DNA of 64,000 nucleotides from Ilyomonas limi. GTDB taxonomy: Bacteria; Bacteroidota; Bacteroidia; Chitinophagales; Chitinophagaceae. The translations under genes were made by a program, and so were the position numbers. Shown here one piece after another: positions 25,003 through 61,279 of this stretch. The notes under the pieces were generated by a model. It had not been told where the DNA came from. It saw only the letters and a list, made by a program, of their open reading frames with translations, and ran no database searches. The stretch spans positions 124,001 through 188,000 of the forward strand of contig NZ_SZQL01000012.1 of NCBI RefSeq assembly GCF_005233845.1. The letters are read 5' to 3'. The stretch's first letter is position 1; each line of letters starts with the position of its first letter.

Positions 25003-25154
25003 CGTCATTGCGAGCGGAGCGAAGCAATCTGTGCTAAGCCTGAAATCATTATTGACGGCTCATTTTGACTTTATGCTCTTTTCTAAATCAATACTGATGA
25101 ATGATTTCGGTTTTAATACCATCCACAGATTGCCTCGCTCCGCTCGGAATGACG
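25003..25154. repeat. inverted-repeat element, family A copy 1
   Basis: A 152-base element whose 31-base ends match in reverse complement at 29 positions. It begins CGTCATTGCGAGCGGAGCGA and ends CTCCGCTCGGAATGACG. Inside, CTGAAATCATT faces AATGATTTCGG, so pairing goes on inwards. A second copy with the same end sequence is at 41319-41495. No reading frame inside, so if mobile it depends on a transposase elsewhere. Confidence 0.85.
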
Positions 25155-25181: not shown

Positions 25182-28100
25182 TTATATGCTTTTTATAATG
25201 CTTTTAGTAATCGCATACGCTGTAAAAGCAACACCAACAACAGATGCAATTTTTGCCAGGCTATCAATGGTTGTGGAACCATGTAGTTTCATTTCGTCCA
25301 CATATTTTTGCTCAGGAAATGCAGCCGCTTTTTCACCGTTTTGCTCGTGCAAAGCCATTTGTAACACTTGTGCTAAATGCATTCCTTTTCTATCAGTTTC
25401 CTGCTCTATCTGTTCGCGGCAGCTAAAACCATCCGAAATAATGATGGTGGATGTAGCTGCTTTGCGAATTGCTGGTAATAGCAATTGTTCGCCGGCTTTT
25501 ATAGATACCTCATAATGCGTACCTTTTTCATATCCAAAGTAGCCAGCCATGCCGCAACAAGTGGTCGGTAATACTTCATAATCCAACCCTGTTTTATCCA
25601 GCACTTTCTTTTCGCTGTCCATCTTCATGATAGAACGGTGATGGCAATGCCCATGCACAATGGCTTTGTGCTCCAGTTTAGGAATTTTAAAATCGGGTGC
25701 CTTTTGCTTTAAAAATTCGCCCAGCGTAAATACCTGTTTGGATAACCGCGTTGCTTGTTCATTGTGCGGAAATAAATTGTGCAGTTCATCGCGGAATACG
25801 GCAACACAACTTGGTTCAAAACCAACAATGGGAATGCCTTCTTTTATTTCATCATGCAATGTATCCAGTATTTCAATCAACATTCGTTTAGCGGTATTCA
25901 GCATACCAAAATCATACAACGGTCTGCCGCAGCAAAGTGATTTTTTGGGAACGATGACTTCAAAACCTGCTGCCTCCAACACTTCTACACCGGCAACCAA
26001 TGTTTGTGGTAAAAAATAGTTATTGAACGTGTCTGCCCAGAGAATTACTTTTTCAGATGTTTGATGTACGATATTTGATGTGTGATGTGCTGTAGCTTCA
26101 TCTTGTATCTTGCCATTCTTTGCTTCTTGAATTTTGTTCCTTGCACCTCGTTTCTCGTATCTTATTTCTTGTTGTCTTTCGAAGAACCAGTTTTTGAATG
26201 ATTTCTCGGCAAACCTGGGCATTTTGCGTTGTGGTGCAATGCCTGCAATGGCTTTAGCGATACCGCTGATAACAGGAGCGTGCATGAAGAAATTAGCAAT
26301 GCCTGGTATATGTGAAGCTAGTCTGCTCCACCAGTAAATCCACCCAAAAACATACGCTGTTCTTGGACGTAACCTGCCATTGTAATAATGTGATAAAAAC
26401 TCTGCTTTATAAGTTGCCATGTCCACATTTACGGGACAATCGCCTTTACAACCTTTACATGCCAGGCACAGGTCTAATGCTTCTTTTACATTTTCATCTT
26501 TCCAGCCACCTTTTAGTACATCGCCGTGCAACATCTCGTACAACAAGCGGGAGCGGCCGCGGGTGCTGTGTTTTTCTTCTCTGGTTACCATATAACTTGG
26601 ACACATCACACCGCCTTCATGCCTTCTACATTCCCCAACACCCACACATTTCAGGGTAATGCGTTCCCAGCTATACGCGTCATCCGGAAATTGAAAGTGC
26701 GTTTTTAATTTCGGCGGATCGTAATCAATACCTATCCGCAGGTCGTTTGTTTGCCCGTAAGTATCCACAATTTTGCCCGGATTCATTCGCCATTGCGGGT
26801 CCCAGATAGCTTTAAATTCTTTGAAGGCTTCCACCAGTTCATCGCCAAACATTATGTGGAGTAAATCGCCACGCGCCTGCCCATCGCCATGTTCACCAGA
26901 AAGTGAGCCGCCATACTTTACTACTAAATGCGCCGCTTCGATAGTAAACTGTTTATATTTTTCAATACCATCCTGCGTTAAAAAATCGAAGCCAATGCGG
27001 CAGTGAATACAACCTTGCCCAAAATGCCCATAAATGGAAGGCTTGTATCCATATTTATCAAATAAGGCACGCAGGTCTTTTACATAATCACCCACATTTT
27101 TAGGATCCACCGCACTGTCTTCCCAACCCGGACCACCATTGGGCTCGCCGGGCACCCAGGCAGTGGCGCCCAATCCTGATTCACGCACCTGCCAAAGTTT
27201 TTGTTCTTGCTCCTCATCATCAAACAAACTCATGGTAGGCGGATTATTTTTTTTCTTCAATTCTTCCATCAATGCTTTTGCTTTGTTGTCAGAATCTTCT
27301 TTACTACCGCCACCAAATTCTACCAATAACCAGGCATTACCTTGTGGCAACAGGGGAATGTCATTAATGTTCAAACCTTTGCGGCGCATAAATTCAATCA
27401 GCAAATCATCTAAGCCTTCCAGACCAATTGGCTCGTGCTTCATAATTTCGGGAACTGCATAGCCGGCATCGGGCAAGCCTGGATAACCAAGTACTAAGAG
27501 GCTGCGTTCTTTGGGGGTAGTAATCAGTTTTAAGGTGGCTTCGGTAATAGTTATTAAAGTGCTTTCGGAACCGATTAAAGCATGTGCCACGTTGAAACCA
27601 TTTTCGGGTAATAAAGCAGGTAAATTATAGCCGGAAACACGGCGCGGAATGTTGGGGAATTTTGTACGGATTAGATCTGCATATTTATCGCGGAGGTCAC
27701 GCATTTTTTTATAAATCTCTGCCTTGCGCCCACCTTCCTTTTGTATTTGCTCATATTCTTCTTCCGATGTTGGGCCTACTTTCATTTTAATACCATCATA
27801 CGTTACAATAGTCATGCTTTCTGTATTGTCTGATGTGCGTGCACCATAGCCGTAGAACTGCGCCATTACAGAGTGCACACCGCAAGAGTTATTGCCGAGC
27901 ATCCCGCCTAATGTACAGTGGTCGTGTGTGGCAGGATCAGGACCAAAAGTTAGCCCGGCTTCGCGTTCGGTGGTATGCCGCATTTCATCGAGTACAATGC
28001 CAGGTTGTACGGTTACTAATTTCTTTTCTTTATTAATGTTTAATACTTGATTGTAATACTTACTCATATCCATCATTACCGCCACATTGCAGCACTGGCC

Positions 28101-28475
28101 GGCAAGGCTGGTGCCGCCACCGCGACTTAAAAGCGGGGCATTGTGCTTTTTGCAAATGCGGATGGTATTAATAATGTCTTCTTCTGTTTTGGGTAGCACT
28201 ACACCAATAGGAAGCTGGCGATAATTCGAAGCATCCGTTGAGTATAACGCACGGCTGCCGGCATCAAAACGTACTTCGCCCGTTACAGCATGTTGCAATT
28301 CATGCGCTAATGCTTTTCTATCAACATTTATAGCATATTTTGTTTGAAAGCGGGTATCTACCTGTACACTATTCACCTGCGATTTGTTGTTGTCTTTTAT
28401 ATGCACTTTGGGCTTTGGAGTATCTGTAATTTCCTTATTGCCCTTCATTTTTGCTTTTGTATGCTGCATTGTCAT
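25182..28475 (-). CDS. FAD-binding and Fe-S oxidoreductase (GlcD/YdiJ-like, D-2-hydroxyacid dehydrogenase type)
   Basis: A 1097-residue fused enzyme. PCMH-type FAD domain first (GGGTSLAGQCC, then TLGGMLGNNSCGVHS), FAD-linked oxidase C-terminal domain, then two 4Fe-4S motifs (CVGVGECRRHEGG...CP and CLACKGCKGDCP), and last two CCG domains (SLCCGRPLYDFG and TTCCGMAGYFGYEKG). Same order as E. coli YdiJ and D-lactate/D-2-hydroxyglutarate dehydrogenases, which pass electrons to the quinone pool. A predicted membrane-associated end (IASVVGVAFTAYAITKSI) could fix it to the membrane. About 80 residues longer than YdiJ, partly from a Lys-rich N-terminus. It follows the enolase-superfamily gene by 12 bases. 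Confidence 0.9.
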   Translation of the reverse strand: MTMQHTKAKMKGNKEITDTPKPKVHIKDNNKSQVNSVQVDTRFQTKYAINVDRKALAHELQHAVTGEVRFDAGSRALYSTDASNYRQLPIGVVLPKTEEDIINTIRICKKHNAPLLSRGGGTSLAGQCCNVAVMMDMSKYYNQVLNINKEKKLVTVQPGIVLDEMRHTTEREAGLTFGPDPATHDHCTLGGMLGNNSCGVHSVMAQFYGYGARTSDNTESMTIVTYDGIKMKVGPTSEEEYEQIQKEGGRKAEIYKKMRDLRDKYADLIRTKFPNIPRRVSGYNLPALLPENGFNVAHALIGSESTLITITEATLKLITTPKERSLLVLGYPGLPDAGYAVPEIMKHEPIGLEGLDDLLIEFMRRKGLNINDIPLLPQGNAWLLVEFGGGSKEDSDNKAKALMEELKKKNNPPTMSLFDDEEQEQKLWQVRESGLGATAWVPGEPNGGPGWEDSAVDPKNVGDYVKDLRALFDKYGYKPSIYGHFGQGCIHCRIGFDFLTQDGIEKYKQFTIEAAHLVVKYGGSLSGEHGDGQARGDLLHIMFGDELVEAFKEFKAIWDPQWRMNPGKIVDTYGQTNDLRIGIDYDPPKLKTHFQFPDDAYSWERITLKCVGVGECRRHEGGVMCPSYMVTREEKHSTRGRSRLLYEMLHGDVLKGGWKDENVKEALDLCLACKGCKGDCPVNVDMATYKAEFLSHYYNGRLRPRTAYVFGWIYWWSRLASHIPGIANFFMHAPVISGIAKAIAGIAPQRKMPRFAEKSFKNWFFERQQEIRYEKRGARNKIQEAKNGKIQDEATAHHTSNIVHQTSEKVILWADTFNNYFLPQTLVAGVEVLEAAGFEVIVPKKSLCCGRPLYDFGMLNTAKRMLIEILDTLHDEIKEGIPIVGFEPSCVAVFRDELHNLFPHNEQATRLSKQVFTLGEFLKQKAPDFKIPKLEHKAIVHGHCHHRSIMKMDSEKKVLDKTGLDYEVLPTTCCGMAGYFGYEKGTHYEVSIKAGEQLLLPAIRKAATSTIIISDGFSCREQIEQETDRKGMHLAQVLQMALHEQNGEKAAAFPEQKYVDEMKLHGSTTIDSLAKIASVVGVAFTAYAITKSIIKSI

Positions 28476-36582: not shown

Positions 36583-37377
36583 ATGATACGCAATCACGTA
36601 ATTGATTATCGCATTGCAGGCGAAGAAATGCAGTTTGTAGAAGTGGAACTGGATCCGCAGGAAACAGTTGTGGCCGAGAGTGGCGCTTTTATGATGATGG
36701 ACGATGGTATTCAGATGCAAACCATCTTTGGCGATGGCAGCCAGCAACAGCAGGGTGGCATCTTCAGCAAATTGCTGAGTGCCGGCAAGCGCCTGTTGGT
36801 AGGGGAGAGCCTTTTTATGACGGCTTTTACCAATGTAAGCAATGGCAAAAAACGGGTGAGCTTTGCATCGCCTTACCCCGGCAAAATTATCCCGTTGAAT
36901 CTGGAGCAGCTTGGCGGTTCGGTTATTTGCCAGAAGGATGCTTTTTTGTGTGCTGCCAAAGGGGTGAGTATCAGCATAGAATTTCAGCGCCGGTTGGGTA
37001 CCGGCTTATTTGGCGGCGAAGGTTTTATTATGGAAAAACTGCAAGGTGATGGCATGGCATTTATGCATGCCGGCGGCCATGTATTTGCGAGGCAATTGGA
37101 AGCTGGTGACATGCTGAAGGTTGATACCGGCTGCCTGGTAGGTTTTACCGCCGGTGTGCAGTTCGACATTCAACTCGTAGGAGGTATAAAAAATACCATT
37201 TTTGGGGGCGAAGGTATGTTCTTTGCTACACTGCGTGGTCCCGGCAGAGTATGGATACAAACGTTGCCGGTGAGCCGGTTAGCTTCGCGTATATTAAGCT
37301 ATGCTACCGTGCAGCGTAAGGAAGAAGGTAGCATTCTCGGGGGGCTGGGCAATATATTAGATGGAGATGGATATTAG
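36583..37377 (+). CDS. AIM24/TIGR00266 family protein
   Basis: A 264-residue protein of the TIGR00266 (AIM24-like) family: a beta-rich fold with repeated Gly-rich strands. Seen: [26 protein letters not shown] at the start (family typical), [14 protein letters not shown] and [23 protein letters not shown], and [28 protein letters not shown] near the C-terminus. Exact molecular role unknown; the yeast homologue is mitochondrial. Start with preceding 88-residue gene. A repeat stretch follows. Confidence 0.9.
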
Positions 37378-37381
37378 TAAT

Positions 37382-37497
37382 AGCTTCGGGCCGTAAGCTA
37401 CGAGCTTGATAGCCTGATAGGTAAATTTTCTGTTTACAACCTTCTGCTTGCAGCCTGAAGCTTGTGGTTTGTAGCTTATTGCTCACGGCCCGAAGCT
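37382..37497. repeat. inverted-repeat element made of AGCTT-type words
   Basis: AGCTTCGGGCCGT (37382-37394) matches ACGGCCCGAAGCT (37485-37497) exactly in reverse complement. The 90 bases between carry further AAGCTACGAGCTT, TTGCAGCC and TTGTAGCTTATTG words. The same word set occurs at 3354-3510. It stands between the AIM24 gene and the flippase gene. Confidence 0.65.
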
Positions 37498-43758: not shown

Positions 43759-44616
43759 TTATCCCAAATACGCTTTCAGCGCATTGCTGTACCTTGCTTT
43801 TTGCAGGCGTTTGATGGCACGTTCTTTAATCTGGCGGATACGTTCTTTGGTCAGGTCGTACTTCATACCAATTTGTTCAATGGTATTGCCGCTTTCTCCA
43901 TCCAGTCCAAAATAAGCATTCACAATTTCTGCTTCTCTGGGTGAGAGTGATTTAAGTACGCGGCGGATTTCTTCGCGCAGCGAATCTTTCATCACATCAT
44001 CATCGGTATCGTCGTTACCTTCCAGCAGGTCGCCCATTGCTACGTCTTCGGCTTCATGCACGGGTGCATCCAGCGAAGTGTGGCGCGTGTTGCTCTGGAA
44101 AATGTTGTTGATTTCCGTTTCGCTCATTTCAAGAATATCAGCCAGCTCTTCGGTAGAAGGTTCGCGCTCATGTTCCTGTTCAAAAGCCATGTAAGCCTTA
44201 TTGGCTTTGTTGTAGGTGCCAATTTTGTTTTGAGGCAGGCGGACTAATCTGCCCTGCTCTGCCAACGCCTGCAGGATGGACTGGCGAATCCACCATACTG
44301 CGTACGAAATAAATTTAAAGCCCTTGGTTTCATCGAAACGCTGGGCTGCTTTTATCAAACCGAGGTTGCCCTCGTTGATGAGGTCGCTAAGCGAAAGGCC
44401 CTGGTGCTGGTACTGCTTAGCCACAGATACCACGAAACGGAGGTTGGCCTGCACGAGTTTGTCCAGTGCTCTCTGGTCACCCATCTTGATCCGCTGTGCC
44501 AGTGTGGTTTCCTCTTCGGGAGTGATCATCGGAATCTTAGAGATTTCCTGCAGATACTTTTCTACGGCCTGCGAGTCACGATTGGTGATCTGGGTGGCAA
44601 TTTTAAGCTGCCTCAT
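43759..44616 (-). CDS. rpoD: primary RNA polymerase sigma factor (RpoD/SigA)
   Basis: Sigma-70 of 285 residues, the short form of Bacteroidota without a long region 1.1. Region 1.2 (AVEKYLQEISKIPMITPEEE), region 2 with NLRFVVSVAKQYQ, GLSLSDLINEGNLGLIKAAQRFD and FISYAVWWIRQSI, region 3 (EREPSTEELADIL), acidic spacer, and region 4 with EQIGMKYDLTKERIRQIKERAIKRLQ. It should recognise the TTTG/TAnnTTTG promoters seen in this window. Transcribed alone, with promoter motif at 44699-44706 and terminator. Confidence 0.97.
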   Translation of the reverse strand: MRQLKIATQITNRDSQAVEKYLQEISKIPMITPEEETTLAQRIKMGDQRALDKLVQANLRFVVSVAKQYQHQGLSLSDLINEGNLGLIKAAQRFDETKGFKFISYAVWWIRQSILQALAEQGRLVRLPQNKIGTYNKANKAYMAFEQEHEREPSTEELADILEMSETEINNIFQSNTRHTSLDAPVHEAEDVAMGDLLEGNDDTDDDVMKDSLREEIRRVLKSLSPREAEIVNAYFGLDGESGNTIEQIGMKYDLTKERIRQIKERAIKRLQKARYSNALKAYLG

Positions 44617-44698
44617 AGTGGTTACTTGCTTGTTTTATTTTAAAATCGAATCTATTAAGCATTTTAGCCGGTTGCACCGCTGTTTACAAATCAGCAGG

Positions 44699-44706
44699 CA
44701 AAGTTA
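44699..44706 (-). promoter_or_regulatory. possible -7 element of the sigma factor gene
   Basis: On the minus strand TAACTTTG fits TAnnTTTG; it would give a leader of about 75 bases. A clear TTG at the -33 distance is lacking. Confidence 0.4.
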
Positions 44707-44904
44707 CAAAAAATATTTGTCCCCGTTAACTGAAAATTATCAATAATTTCTTATATTTCTCGCCCGGCTTTTGTGTAATGCCCATTTTCGCTCCAATTAT
44801 CCCCAATTTTTACCAAACCCTTCTTCGATATGCAAAACGCCTATCTTCGTACTTTAGCTGTTTAATAACAACAAACCAACATACAGAAAAGTACTGTTAC
44901 AATT

Positions 44905-46554
44905 ATGTTTCCAAAAATCAATCCCACCACTACCCAGGCCTGGCTATTGCTGAGAAGGCATTTTGAAGAGGAAATGAGCCGCACCCACATGAAAGATTTG
45001 TTTGCCAGAGATGCAGACCGCTTCTCTAAATTTTCGCTCACGGCTGAAGGAATTTTATTTGATTATTCTAAAAACATCATTACTGCCAAAACGCTGCAAC
45101 TACTGCTGCAACTGGCAGAGGACTGCAAACTGAAGGAAGCCATTGAAGCCATGTTCAGCGGGGAAAAGATTAATGAAACAGAAAACCGCTCGGTACTGCA
45201 CATTGCTTTGCGCAACCTGAGCAACAAGCCCATTTACAGTGATGAACAGGATGTAATGCCGGAAGTAAATAAGGTGCTACAGCAAATGAAAGATTTTTGC
45301 GAAAAAGTACATACCGGCGAGTGGAAAGGGTATTCGGGTAAAAAGATAAAATACATTGTAAATATAGGCATTGGCGGCTCCGATTTGGGACCCGTGATGG
45401 TTACTGAAGCCCTGAAGCCGTATTGGCTCGAAGGCATCCAGGCTTATTTTGTAAGTAATGTAGATGCCACCCATATTGCCGAAACACTGAAAAAAGTAAC
45501 GCCCGAAGAAACATTATTTCTCATTGCCTCCAAAACCTTTACCACGCAGGAAACAATGACCAATGCCCGCACGGCGCGCGACTGGTTTTTGAAATCGGCA
45601 ATGAATGAAGAGGACGTTGCCAAACATTTTGTGGCCTTAAGCACCAACGAAAAAGAGGTGATAAAATTTGGTATTGATCCGGCAAATATGTTCCAATTCT
45701 GGGATTGGGTGGGCGGCCGTTATTCGCTGTGGAGTGCTATTGGTTTGTCTATCGCATTAACCGTTGGCTTTGATAATTTTGAAAAACTACTGAAAGGTGC
45801 TCATACCATAGATGAATATTTTAAAAACACTTCTTTCGATAAAAATATTCCGGTGCTGATGGGCTTAATTGGTATATGGTATATCAACTTTTTTGGTGCA
45901 CAAACCGAAGCTATTTTGCCCTACGACCAATACATGCATCGCTTTGCAGCCTATTTTCAGCAGGGTGATATGGAAAGCAATGGCAAGAGTGTAGATCGCA
46001 CAGGTCACCGCGTTTCTTACTCCACTGGTCCGGTTATCTGGGGCGAGCCTGGAACCAACGGGCAACATGCTTTTTACCAGTTAATTCACCAGGGCACCAT
46101 CCTTATTCCCTGCGATTTTATTGCACCGGCAATCAGCCACAATCCTATTGGTGACCATCACGAAAAGCTGTTGAGTAACTTCTTTGCGCAAACAGAAGCC
46201 CTGATGAATGGCAAAAACGAAAAAGAAGTAAAAGCCGAGCTGGAAGGCATGCCCGAAGATACGATGAAGAAGCTTGTATGTTTTAAAGAGTTTCAGGGAA
46301 ATAAGCCTACTAACTCCTTTTTGCTAAAGGAAATAACACCGAAGTCACTCGGCAGTTTGATAGCTTTGTACGAGCATAAAATTTTTGTACAAGGCGTTAT
46401 CTGGAATATATTTTCGTTTGACCAATGGGGCGTAGAACTGGGCAAGCAACTCGCCAACAAAATTTTGCCCGAGTTGAAAAATGACGAAGAAATAAAAAGT
46501 CATGATTCCTCTACAAATGGATTGATAAATGCGTATAAAACTTTGCGTCAGTAG
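44905..46554 (+). CDS. pgi: glucose-6-phosphate isomerase
   Basis: Glycolytic enzyme that interconverts glucose-6-phosphate and fructose-6-phosphate, 549 residues, long (E. coli-like) form. Seen: [17 protein letters not shown] at about 153-169, [13 protein letters not shown], the signature [22 protein letters not shown] and [19 protein letters not shown] with the active-site residues, and [16 protein letters not shown]-like C-terminal signature ([20 protein letters not shown]). Alone; an inverted-repeat element follows right after the stop. Confidence 0.97.
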
Positions 46555-46565
46555 CCTTTATTGCA

Positions 46566-46709
46566 CACGGATGACACGAATTGCACGAATTGCACGAATT
46601 GTTCTGATACGAATGACATGAACTGAACGAATTTTTGGAACACGGATGACTAAGATTACATACATGGATAAACAAAATTTATTAATTCGTGCAATTCGTG
46701 TCATCCGTG
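46566..46709. repeat. inverted-repeat element, family B (26-bp perfect arms)
   Basis: The left arm 46566-46591 (CACGGATGACACGAATTG...) and the right arm 46684-46709 (...AATTCGTGTCATCCGTG) are perfect reverse complements over 26 bases. The left arm includes a 9-base tandem (ACGAATTGC twice and part of a third copy), and a further CACGGATGAC stands at about 46640. The element starts 11 bases after the pgi stop and its right arm lies inside the next coding sequence. Confidence 0.88.
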
Positions 46710-47719
46710 CTTTTGAAATTCATGTTTTATTAGTGTTCCTCTTTTTATTCATAGCTTTTTATTCCCGTGCGCAAACTATTCAGGTGCTTACGAGTGGCGC
46801 AAACACTTCGCTACGCGGATTAAGTGTGGTGAATAATAGTGTACTATGGGCGAGCGGCAGTAATGGTACGGTGGCGCGCTCTACTGATGGCGGTAAAACC
46901 TTTAACTGGATAACTGTAAAAGGCTATGAGCAGCGCGACTTTCGCGATGTGGAAGCTTTTGATTCCAATACAGCTATCATCATGGCAATCGCTGAGCCGG
47001 CAATTATTTTAAAAACACTTGACGGTGGGAAAACATGGAAGAAAGTATTTGAAGACAGTACGAAAGGGATGTTTTTGGATGCAATGGATTTTGCTGGTGA
47101 TTATGGTGTTGTGGTTGGCGACCCAATAGATAAAAAAGCTTTTATTGCAGTAACAGAAGATAGCGGCAATCATTGGCATTCCTCCTCATTGCCTTACGCG
47201 TTAGATAGTAATGAAGCTTTTTTTGCATCGAGCGGCACTAATGTAAAATTGAATTTTGATTCATTTGAAAGAATATATAATCATGTGGCAGTAAGCGGTG
47301 GTTCGCAATCCAACTTGCTTATTGATAAAAAATATAAATTGCCCTTGCTGCAAGGAAAAGAGACGCAAGGTGCTAATTCTGTTACTATTAATCCAAAAAA
47401 TAAAAGAATAGTTGTAGTTGGGGGTGATTTTAAAAATGATAAAGAATCAGCAGGTAATTGCGTATTAGTATCACTTAATAAAAAAATTAAAATTGAAGTT
47501 CCCCAAACCCCACCACATGGCTATCGTAGCTGCGTTGAATTTATAAACGACAAACAACTTATCACCTGTGGCACTTCCGGCGTAGATATTTCTAATGATG
47601 GGGGCATGAACTGGACACTTATTTCACCGGAGAGCTTTCACGTTTGTCAGAAAGCGAAAGAGGGCAATGCCGTATTTCTCGCAGGCAAAAACGGGCGTAT
47701 TGCCAAACTATACTTTTAA
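46664..47719 (+). CDS. secreted BNR/YCF48-like beta-propeller protein
   Basis: A 351-residue protein with a long signal peptide; charged n-region (KQNLLIRAIRVIRAFEIH) and core VLLVFLFLFIAFYSRA before QTI. The mature part has beta-propeller repeats of the BNR/sortilin type: STDGGKTFNWI, TLDGGKTWKKV, TEDSGNHWHSS, SNDGGMNWTLI. Related proteins are called YCF48/HCF136-like or 'oxidoreductase' without proof. No T9SS domain is seen. Unusual: codons 7-16 come from the right arm of the inverted repeat at 46566-46709. The in-frame ATG at 46646 is an alternative start. Confidence 0.85.
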   Translation: MDKQNLLIRAIRVIRAFEIHVLLVFLFLFIAFYSRAQTIQVLTSGANTSLRGLSVVNNSVLWASGSNGTVARSTDGGKTFNWITVKGYEQRDFRDVEAFDSNTAIIMAIAEPAIILKTLDGGKTWKKVFEDSTKGMFLDAMDFAGDYGVVVGDPIDKKAFIAVTEDSGNHWHSSSLPYALDSNEAFFASSGTNVKLNFDSFERIYNHVAVSGGSQSNLLIDKKYKLPLLQGKETQGANSVTINPKNKRIVVVGGDFKNDKESAGNCVLVSLNKKIKIEVPQTPPHGYRSCVEFINDKQLITCGTSGVDISNDGGMNWTLISPESFHVCQKAKEGNAVFLAGKNGRIAKLYF

Positions 47720-47989
47720 TAGACTTTTCTTTTTGCCAGCTATTCATGCTTAAACTGCTTCTTTCTTTTCATATTTATCCATTATACATCTGCTGCTTAT
47801 CTGCATACATAACTAATGCGCATTTTTATTCATTTTGCTTTTTTTGAGTATTGCTTTTTCATGGAGGCTGTATTTTATAAACCGATTTGATAAAAAGCTA
47901 TAGAATATCTCCTTACATTTAAGAAAATTATGCGCTTTGGCATGGTAATCGTTCCAAAAATGTATTACAAACAATTAAATCTTTGCACT

Positions 47990-48178
47990 ATGGACAAGCT
48001 GGAAATAAAAGGTAAATGGAATGAATGGAAGGGTAAGCTGAAGCAGGCACATGGTGACCTGACTGATGATGATCTTGAATATAATGAAGGTAAGGACGAT
48101 GAGTTTTGGGGTAACCTGCAGCAGAAGACGGGTAAAGCAAAGGATGACCTCATTAAGTGGTTGAGAGATGCAGGATAA
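47990..48178 (+). CDS. CsbD family stress protein
   Basis: A 62-residue, strongly charged helical protein of the CsbD family, often induced by general stress; biochemical role unknown. Seen: [17 protein letters not shown] at the start and [20 protein letters not shown], the family core, followed by [13 protein letters not shown]. The start at 47990 gives exact family length; the longer frame from 47930 adds a non-conserved tail. About 270 bases before it hold no gene. Confidence 0.9.
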
Positions 48179-48258
48179 ATAGGTAACTCCCTTGTAAAGA
48201 ACCATAATAGATTCTGCTTATCTTTATCAAAAGGTATTTGTTATTACCTATCCTGCAT

Positions 48259-49161
48259 ATGGAATTTGGAAAAACAGATCCGGAACAATTGAAATCAATA
48301 AACCTTTCGCTGCCGCCCGAACCGGTAGCGAACAAGGCATTACTTGCTAAAAGCAATAAGAAAGAACAAAAGATTTACGTAGGCTGCCCTGAATGGGGCA
48401 AGAAAGAATGGGTAGGTAAATTTTATCCTTCCGGTACGCAGGAAAAAGATTTTTTGTATGCCTATGCACGCTTATTCAACTGCATAGAGTTAAACACTAC
48501 TTACTACCAGATACCGGCTGTAGCGCAGGTGCAAAAATGGAGAGCAACAGCCGGTCCTGGTTTTAAATTCTGCCCTAAATTTCCCCAGTTTATTACGCAT
48601 GTACAGCGCCTTACCAACTGTATGGCAGAAACCATTGCATTTATTAATGCCATCAGCGCTTTTGAAGATAGTTTAGGCCCGTTGTTCTTAATGCCGCACC
48701 CACAAATGGGTCCGAATGCTTTAGGAATCATTGAAAAATTTATTGCTAAACTGCCCGCTGATTTAGACTTGTTTCTGGAGCTGCGACATCCTTTATGGTT
48801 TGCTAATGGACTTAATAAGCAACTCTATGACATGGCAAGACATTACGATGTAGGATTGATTATAACCGATGCTGCCGGCCGGCGCGATTGTGTGCACATG
48901 TACTTAACCAAGCCCGAAGCATTTATACGTTTTGTAGGTAATGAGCTACATCCCACAGATTATGCACGTATTGATGAATGGGTAAACCGCATTAAGTTGT
49001 GGCTGGATGAAGGCTTACCTTCGCTGTACTTCTTCATGCACCAACACAACAGGGTAGATGCGCCGGTACTGAATAAGTATTTGGTAGAAAAGCTGAATGA
49101 AGTTTGTCATTTGCATTTGCCTGTTCCGCAAATGCACGATGCGCAAGGTGTGTTGTTTTAA
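48259..49161 (+). CDS. DUF72 domain protein (YecE-like)
   Basis: A 300-residue TIM-barrel-like protein of the DUF72 family. Seen: IYVGCPEWGKKEWVGKFYP, FNCIELNTTYYQIP, FCPKFPQFITH, LFLELRHPLWF, and SLYFFMHQHNRVDAP. The usual second motif reads GT/GCxxW and AVExNxTFY; both are present. Function unknown. Start 48259 is chosen (MEFGKTDPEQ). The convergent symporter gene ends five bases after its stop. Confidence 0.9.
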   Translation: MEFGKTDPEQLKSINLSLPPEPVANKALLAKSNKKEQKIYVGCPEWGKKEWVGKFYPSGTQEKDFLYAYARLFNCIELNTTYYQIPAVAQVQKWRATAGPGFKFCPKFPQFITHVQRLTNCMAETIAFINAISAFEDSLGPLFLMPHPQMGPNALGIIEKFIAKLPADLDLFLELRHPLWFANGLNKQLYDMARHYDVGLIITDAAGRRDCVHMYLTKPEAFIRFVGNELHPTDYARIDEWVNRIKLWLDEGLPSLYFFMHQHNRVDAPVLNKYLVEKLNEVCHLHLPVPQMHDAQGVLF

Positions 49162-60656: not shown

Positions 60657-61279
60657 TTTTTTAGTAGGATAAGGATGTAACTGGTGTTTCACTGATTAAA
60701 CTGATAAGATGAAAAGTGCCGGACTTTCAGGATGTCCGGCGCTTTTTTATCAGGTTAGCGTGTGTGCGTTTTAAATATTCGTCTCTGCTGGTGAAAAGCA
60801 TCATAGCTGTTGGGAAGAAGGGTTAAAACAGCGTTACCTGTTGGACCAACGTCATTCTTCGCTGCTACCCGTAATGAAGGCGATACGCTACTTTAAATTA
60901 ACAGTATTTAGGTTTCGTACGCGGATGTCTCCCGGTCTGCATTTTATTTACAGCTATGTTCATCTGCTTATTACGACAAATAAAAAGAGAGACTTTTTTT
61001 GGATGTTTTGATAAGGGACATGCTGGTGGTTTGGGTGAGGCCGAAAATACCCCTTGTTTTTTATCTCCAGATGCGCGTTGCTAACACCAGCAAAAAATGG
61101 TAAGGCAGCGCAGCAAATAGCTTGAAATGTACGTCCTTTGAATCTCGTTCAGTATAATTGCTGTCTTCCGGATGAGTGAATTTTAAATGTCAGTGCTGCC
61201 CCGTACAGTAAAATACAAATCAATGCCGCAAAGATCTGCGCCCAATATTTCTACTCGGTCGTTCGTTTATTCAACAATC
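60657..61279. other. intergenic region
   Basis: 623 bases without a recognisable gene. The terminator at 60712-60748 is at the left; the rest has mixed composition, several stops in every frame and no repeat found. The promoter for pdeM should lie in the last 150 bases. Confidence 0.5.
60712..60748 (+). terminator. terminator of the caspase-fold-like gene
   Basis: AAAAGTGCCGGAC and GTCCGGCGCTTTT form a 13-bp stem (one T-G pair) over nine bases, followed by T, 55 bases past the stop. Confidence 0.88.

Follow-up and report, generated by a model that had tools for sequence, protein, structure and literature searches.

It has been reported that RU-2, the Yersinia palindromic sequence, is a MITE that codes for residues 1–30 of the predicted 41-residue signal peptide of YPO1552, and that YPO1552 homologues outside Yersinia carry signal peptides unrelated to this one (Delihas 2007; PMC2759123, PMC2229807). 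Rickettsia palindromic elements (RPE) are palindromic repeats of ~150 bp that are translated in frame inside their host genes (review PMC10969869). Given RU-2/YPO1552 and the RPE, the uptake of repeats into genes and MITE-derived signal peptides are already known. A MITE of the Bacteroidota, BrickBuilt of Porphyromonas gingivalis, has inverted ends and contains short repeats in tandem (PMC4596501).

In the window, which is the whole 64,000-nucleotide stretch of Ilyomonas limi DNA analysed here, a dispersed palindromic element likewise lies at the 5′ end of a gene and, as judged from sequence alone, appears to code for part of a signal peptide. The element, the phylum and the gene differ from those of RU-2/YPO1552; the RU-2 case is conserved in several strains, whereas the present one is known from a single genome, and here the start codon would lie between the arms, with one arm coding for the charged n-region. 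RPEs are often found in ORFs, while the copies of the present repeat are mostly intergenic and this one is N-terminal. BrickBuilt can be likened to it by description, as a Bacteroidota MITE with short internal tandem repeats and inverted ends, but its units are 23 nt long (9 nt here), and signal-peptide coding is not among the features described in the available part of that source (PMC4596501). A literature search with the repeat sequence returned nothing relevant, and the element family and the gene are, as far as searched, new.

The gene concerned (46646–47719, + strand) is open and full length and codes for a YCF48/BNR-like, presumably secreted protein of 357 aa (PF14870, E 4.5e-11, 43 bits, cut-off 27). 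It is single-copy in its own genome, has a match in 43 of the 61 genomes searched, and its closest homologue shares ~63% identity, too little for the DNA before and after insertion to be compared. The upstream neighbour is phosphoglucose isomerase, pgi (44905–46554, + strand; PF00342, E 1.2e-246). Between 46400 and 46760, no match was found to a Bacteroidota-type promoter (TTG-N17-23-TANNTTTG, one mismatch allowed). As described in the first-pass annotation, the left arm (46566–46591, units CACGGATGA CACGAATTG CACGAATT) and the right arm (46684–46709) are perfect inverted repeats, complementary at 26/26 positions with a spacing of 92 nt; the chance expectation for perfect 26-nt inverted repeats no more than 200 nt apart in 64 kb is ~6e-9. 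Three tandem copies of the 9-nt unit CACGAATTG lie at 46575–46601. The right-arm codons ATT CGT GCA ATT CGT GTC ATC CGT, in the frame of the ORF, read IRAIRVIR, and together with the preceding codon they give the LIRAIRVIR that had been pointed out earlier.

The predicted hairpin has a folding energy of −53 kcal/mol (z = −5.5, equalled in 0 of 200 shuffles), and its perfect stem is 26 nt long against 6–16 nt in the 27 other family copies compared, from which it follows that the arms of this copy have been kept or made identical; the stem is either a recently homogenised quasi-palindrome or one under selection. Such a stem and fold would also suit a terminator or a regulatory RNA structure in the gap that follows pgi, the coding overlap being incidental; this is nevertheless very unlikely, since Rfam families have no match within 44000–49000, no U-run follows the stem, the homologues have no repeat upstream, and the family is dispersed at unrelated loci. 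The exact right arm is found only in its own genome among 299 genomes of the order, with one-mismatch forms in four others. Two other inverted repeats were seen in the window. One, at 25003–25154, has 31-nt arms (CGTCATTGCGAGCGGAGCGAAGCAATCTGTG, 94%), is intergenic and follows the 3′ end of ORF 25182–28475 (minus strand), and it looks like another type of dispersed repeat; the other, at 37382–37497, has 25-nt arms (AGCTTCGGGCCGTAAGCTACGAGCT, 84%) spaced 66 nt apart and directly follows the ORF 36583–37377.

The inverted repeat had been called an element, and a search of the genome for further arms, as proposed at the time, bears this out. Two adjacent units (CACGRATKNCACGRATK, ≤1 mismatch) have 24 genome matches against 2 for the reversed control, and a sequence model (R1) built from nine copies, with the copy at 46566–46709 left out, finds at least ~37 distinct loci at E ≤ 1e-3 and matches the left-out copy independently; overlapping strands were merged by hand and 150 of 1383 candidates were scored, so that the count is a lower bound. 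The element is thus one copy of a divergent, dispersed repeat of ~200 bp, bounded by terminal inverted repeats (TATAGCACACGGATGA...TCATCCGTGTGCTATA) and containing 9-nt units CACGRATKN. Copies measure ~130–250 bp and contain no long ORF; many have the terminal inverted repeats TATAGCACACGGATGA / TCATCCGTGTGCTATA with 0–3 mismatches, many share the internal segment GGATAAGGATTGAACTGAT..CTGATTAAACTGATTCATT, and the element ends start and finish with TA. The copies are ~60–75% alike, and the family is therefore probably old. The majority of the other top-scoring copies do not overlap any ORF of ≥100 codons and are mostly intergenic. The family looks like a MITE or a REP-like dispersed repeat: it has the short length, multiple dispersed copies, lack of transposase coding and terminal inverted repeats of a MITE. 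A cognate transposase was sought among Y1_Tnp and GxxExxY genes only, and no unit arrays lie beside any of these. A RAYT partner was rejected, as none of the five Y1_Tnp loci in the genome is flanked by the repeat within ~1.5 kb and the REP/RAYT arrangement of repeats around a Y1 transposase is not seen at them; a GxxExxY gene was likewise rejected as autonomous partner, the repeat flanking none of the four loci located. A partial family copy, consisting of the internal segment with the ends absent, is present in the window at 60659–60719. A few other genomes in the order, chiefly G010 and G048, also have related repeats. In a further genome of the order, G192 (L248, L250–L261), near-exact arms of the AATCCGTTTAATCCGTGTCATCCGTG type number at least 24; a related repeat has perhaps expanded there more recently, and empty sites and a transposase may be easier to find in that genome.

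Because the element is quasi-palindromic, model R1 matches the present copy on both strands: minus strand, 46560–46729 (44.0 bits, E 6e-13); plus strand, 46560–46734 (32.2 bits). The left terminus TATTGCACACGGATGA is identical to the family end TATAGCACACGGATGA at 15 of 16 positions, and the right end is degenerate. From the model matches and the family-like left end, the whole copy is placed at 46560–46734. The extent of 46566–46709 given in the first-pass annotation therefore holds for the arms and is too short for the element, which reaches into the codons for EIHVLL. The 22-nt segment from 46710 is equalled in its match to the internal TTTGAATAATTCGTGTTT of the family by only 12 of 63720 other 22-mers (empirical p ~2e-4).

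The predicted N-terminal sequence of the product is MTKITYMDKQNLLIRAIRVIR. The frame is closed upstream by a TGA at 46619–46621, and the only in-frame ATGs before the mature part are at 46646–46648 and 46664–46666, both between the arms; no Met stands between the arm and the hydrophobic core, as had been claimed. Translation from the second ATG would give MDKQNLLIRAIRVIRAFEIH-VLLVFLFLFIAFYS-RA/QT, in which the −3 and −1 residues of SRA|QT, S and A, suit cleavage by signal peptidase I. The presumed signal peptide would be long, with 36 residues from M7 or 42 from M1, and those of homologues mostly have ~18–26; its h-region VLLVFLFLFI has a hydrophobicity of 3.65 compared with 2.4–3.5 in 12 homologues. 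Among 101 homologues, in which the start was taken as the closest ATG lying 15 or more codons upstream and the distance was counted to the equivalent of IQVL, the start lies at a median of 23 codons before that mature part, further downstream than here; the second residue is K or R in 60/101, and 0/101 have paired units in the 300 nt that precede the gene. The corresponding position reads FEIHVLLV in this gene, with no Met or ATG, and the DNA there is element-like. The comparison of this locus in relatives that had been suggested thus yields homologues without the repeat upstream, and none of those examined has the same N-terminus without an inverted repeat; as judged from sequence, the element would code for the N-terminus here, and the homologues lack it. 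Besides the two ATGs, the only in-frame ATG, GTG or TTG before the mature part is the GTG at 46733, inside the hydrophobic core. GTG is allowed as a start and this one is located at the edge of the element, which would then be merely 5′ untranslated sequence; the product, however, would be MFLFLFIAFYSRA, with a signal peptide of 13 residues that is shorter than those of nearly all homologues and has no positive charge before the core, and initiation at this codon is accordingly given very little weight.

The segment TTGAAATTCATGTTTTATTAGT (46713–46734, + strand) can be read either as element-derived (family TTTGAATAATTCGTGTTT) or as a frameshifted remnant of the native start. According to the latter reading, the element was inserted just upstream of the native start, which later lost a base (or the assembly lost one T), so that it is by luck that the element can be read through in frame, and the gene is either in decay or, in the real genome, intact. 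The +1 frame at 46713 reads LKFMFY*, and TTGAAATTCATG at this position is possibly the broken start: a former ATG-AAA-TTC-ATG-TTT... would now be TTG AAA TTC ATG TTT TAT TAG (46713–46733), and one extra T would give MKFMFLLVFLFLFIAFYSRAQT, a typical 22-residue signal peptide of homologue-like length. However, the same DNA is also explained as element by the rare match noted above, both an ATG to TTG substitution and a deletion are required, the T run (46725–46728) is only four long and not a usual site of error, and the genome is 100% complete with a contamination of 0.02. A broken native start in another frame (TTG-AAA-TTC-ATG, 46713–46724) is regarded as rather unlikely, yet it is the strongest of the rival readings.

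The start codon and n-region coming from the element is the simplest reading, because there is no Met where the homologues start, in-frame ATGs stand in the loop, the TGA at 46619 closes the frame, and the GTG at 46733 leaves a 13-residue peptide. It is considered moderately probable that the element took the place of the native start and n-region and that translation of the gene now begins within the element. A non-autonomous MITE/REP-like repeat would have entered the stretch that separates pgi from the ycf48-like gene, at the extreme 5′ end of the latter. It would have displaced or overwritten the native ATG and n-region and, probably, the residues with which the hydrophobic core began; the gene would have survived because one frame through the element is open, beginning with the ATGs of the loop. 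Translation would most likely start at 46664, or else at 46646, and IRAIRVIR of the right arm would serve as the positively charged n-region, followed by FLFLFIAFYS as the native hydrophobic core and by the cleavage site, SRA|QT. Family membership, position, the open frame and the homologues without an upstream repeat are observed, whereas we infer the insertion history, the start codon used and a working fused signal peptide. The earlier claim that the element had been taken up into the gene to supply its start and n-region is borne out in part, namely as to family membership, the 0/101 homologues with the repeat, their downstream starts and the ATGs inside the element, and the translation start itself is putative; altogether, capture is well supported by sequence comparison and putative at the level of translation. 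Several points speak against it: initiation might be impeded by so strong a hairpin around the start codon, the presumed signal peptide is long, 46400–46760 has no match to a Bacteroidota-type promoter, and TTGAAATTCATG may be a broken native start.

Other family copies also touch genes. The copy at L150 (C34:265573-265755) reaches up to a TIGR02757 gene (L150 1501–2475, E 3.2e-66), whose relatives mostly have an ATG a few codons before LKxFLD. This gene has no ATG there, only TTGs, of which the nearest, at −8, falls narrowly beyond the model match; a further ATG stands 28 codons upstream, inside the element. This may be a second case of capture, or a TTG start may be used instead. At L168 (1501–1663), the last ~20 codons of a long ORF lie inside a model match, and the repeat copy may also form a C-terminus. 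At L016, near 1501–1560 (C6:162984), the start codon of an efflux-pump-like ORF (MNKFIKNIIHFSLRHRYLVFF) stands within the unit-like AATCCATG, beside degenerate repeat arms. It is conceivable, though doubtful, that in this lineage the family has captured the starts of genes time and again. The YCF48-like protein would owe to it the start codon, the charged n-region and part of the hydrophobic core, and the TIGR02757 protein possibly its N-terminus, with the in-gene arm of the YCF48-like gene kept perfect by quasi-palindrome correction, in which case a DNA hairpin would be writing protein sequence.

The locus offers a concrete and testable example from the Bacteroidota in which a small dispersed repeat would give a conserved single-copy gene both its start and its export signal. 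As signal n-regions accept many basic sequences, it is there that non-coding repeats would most naturally find their way into proteins.
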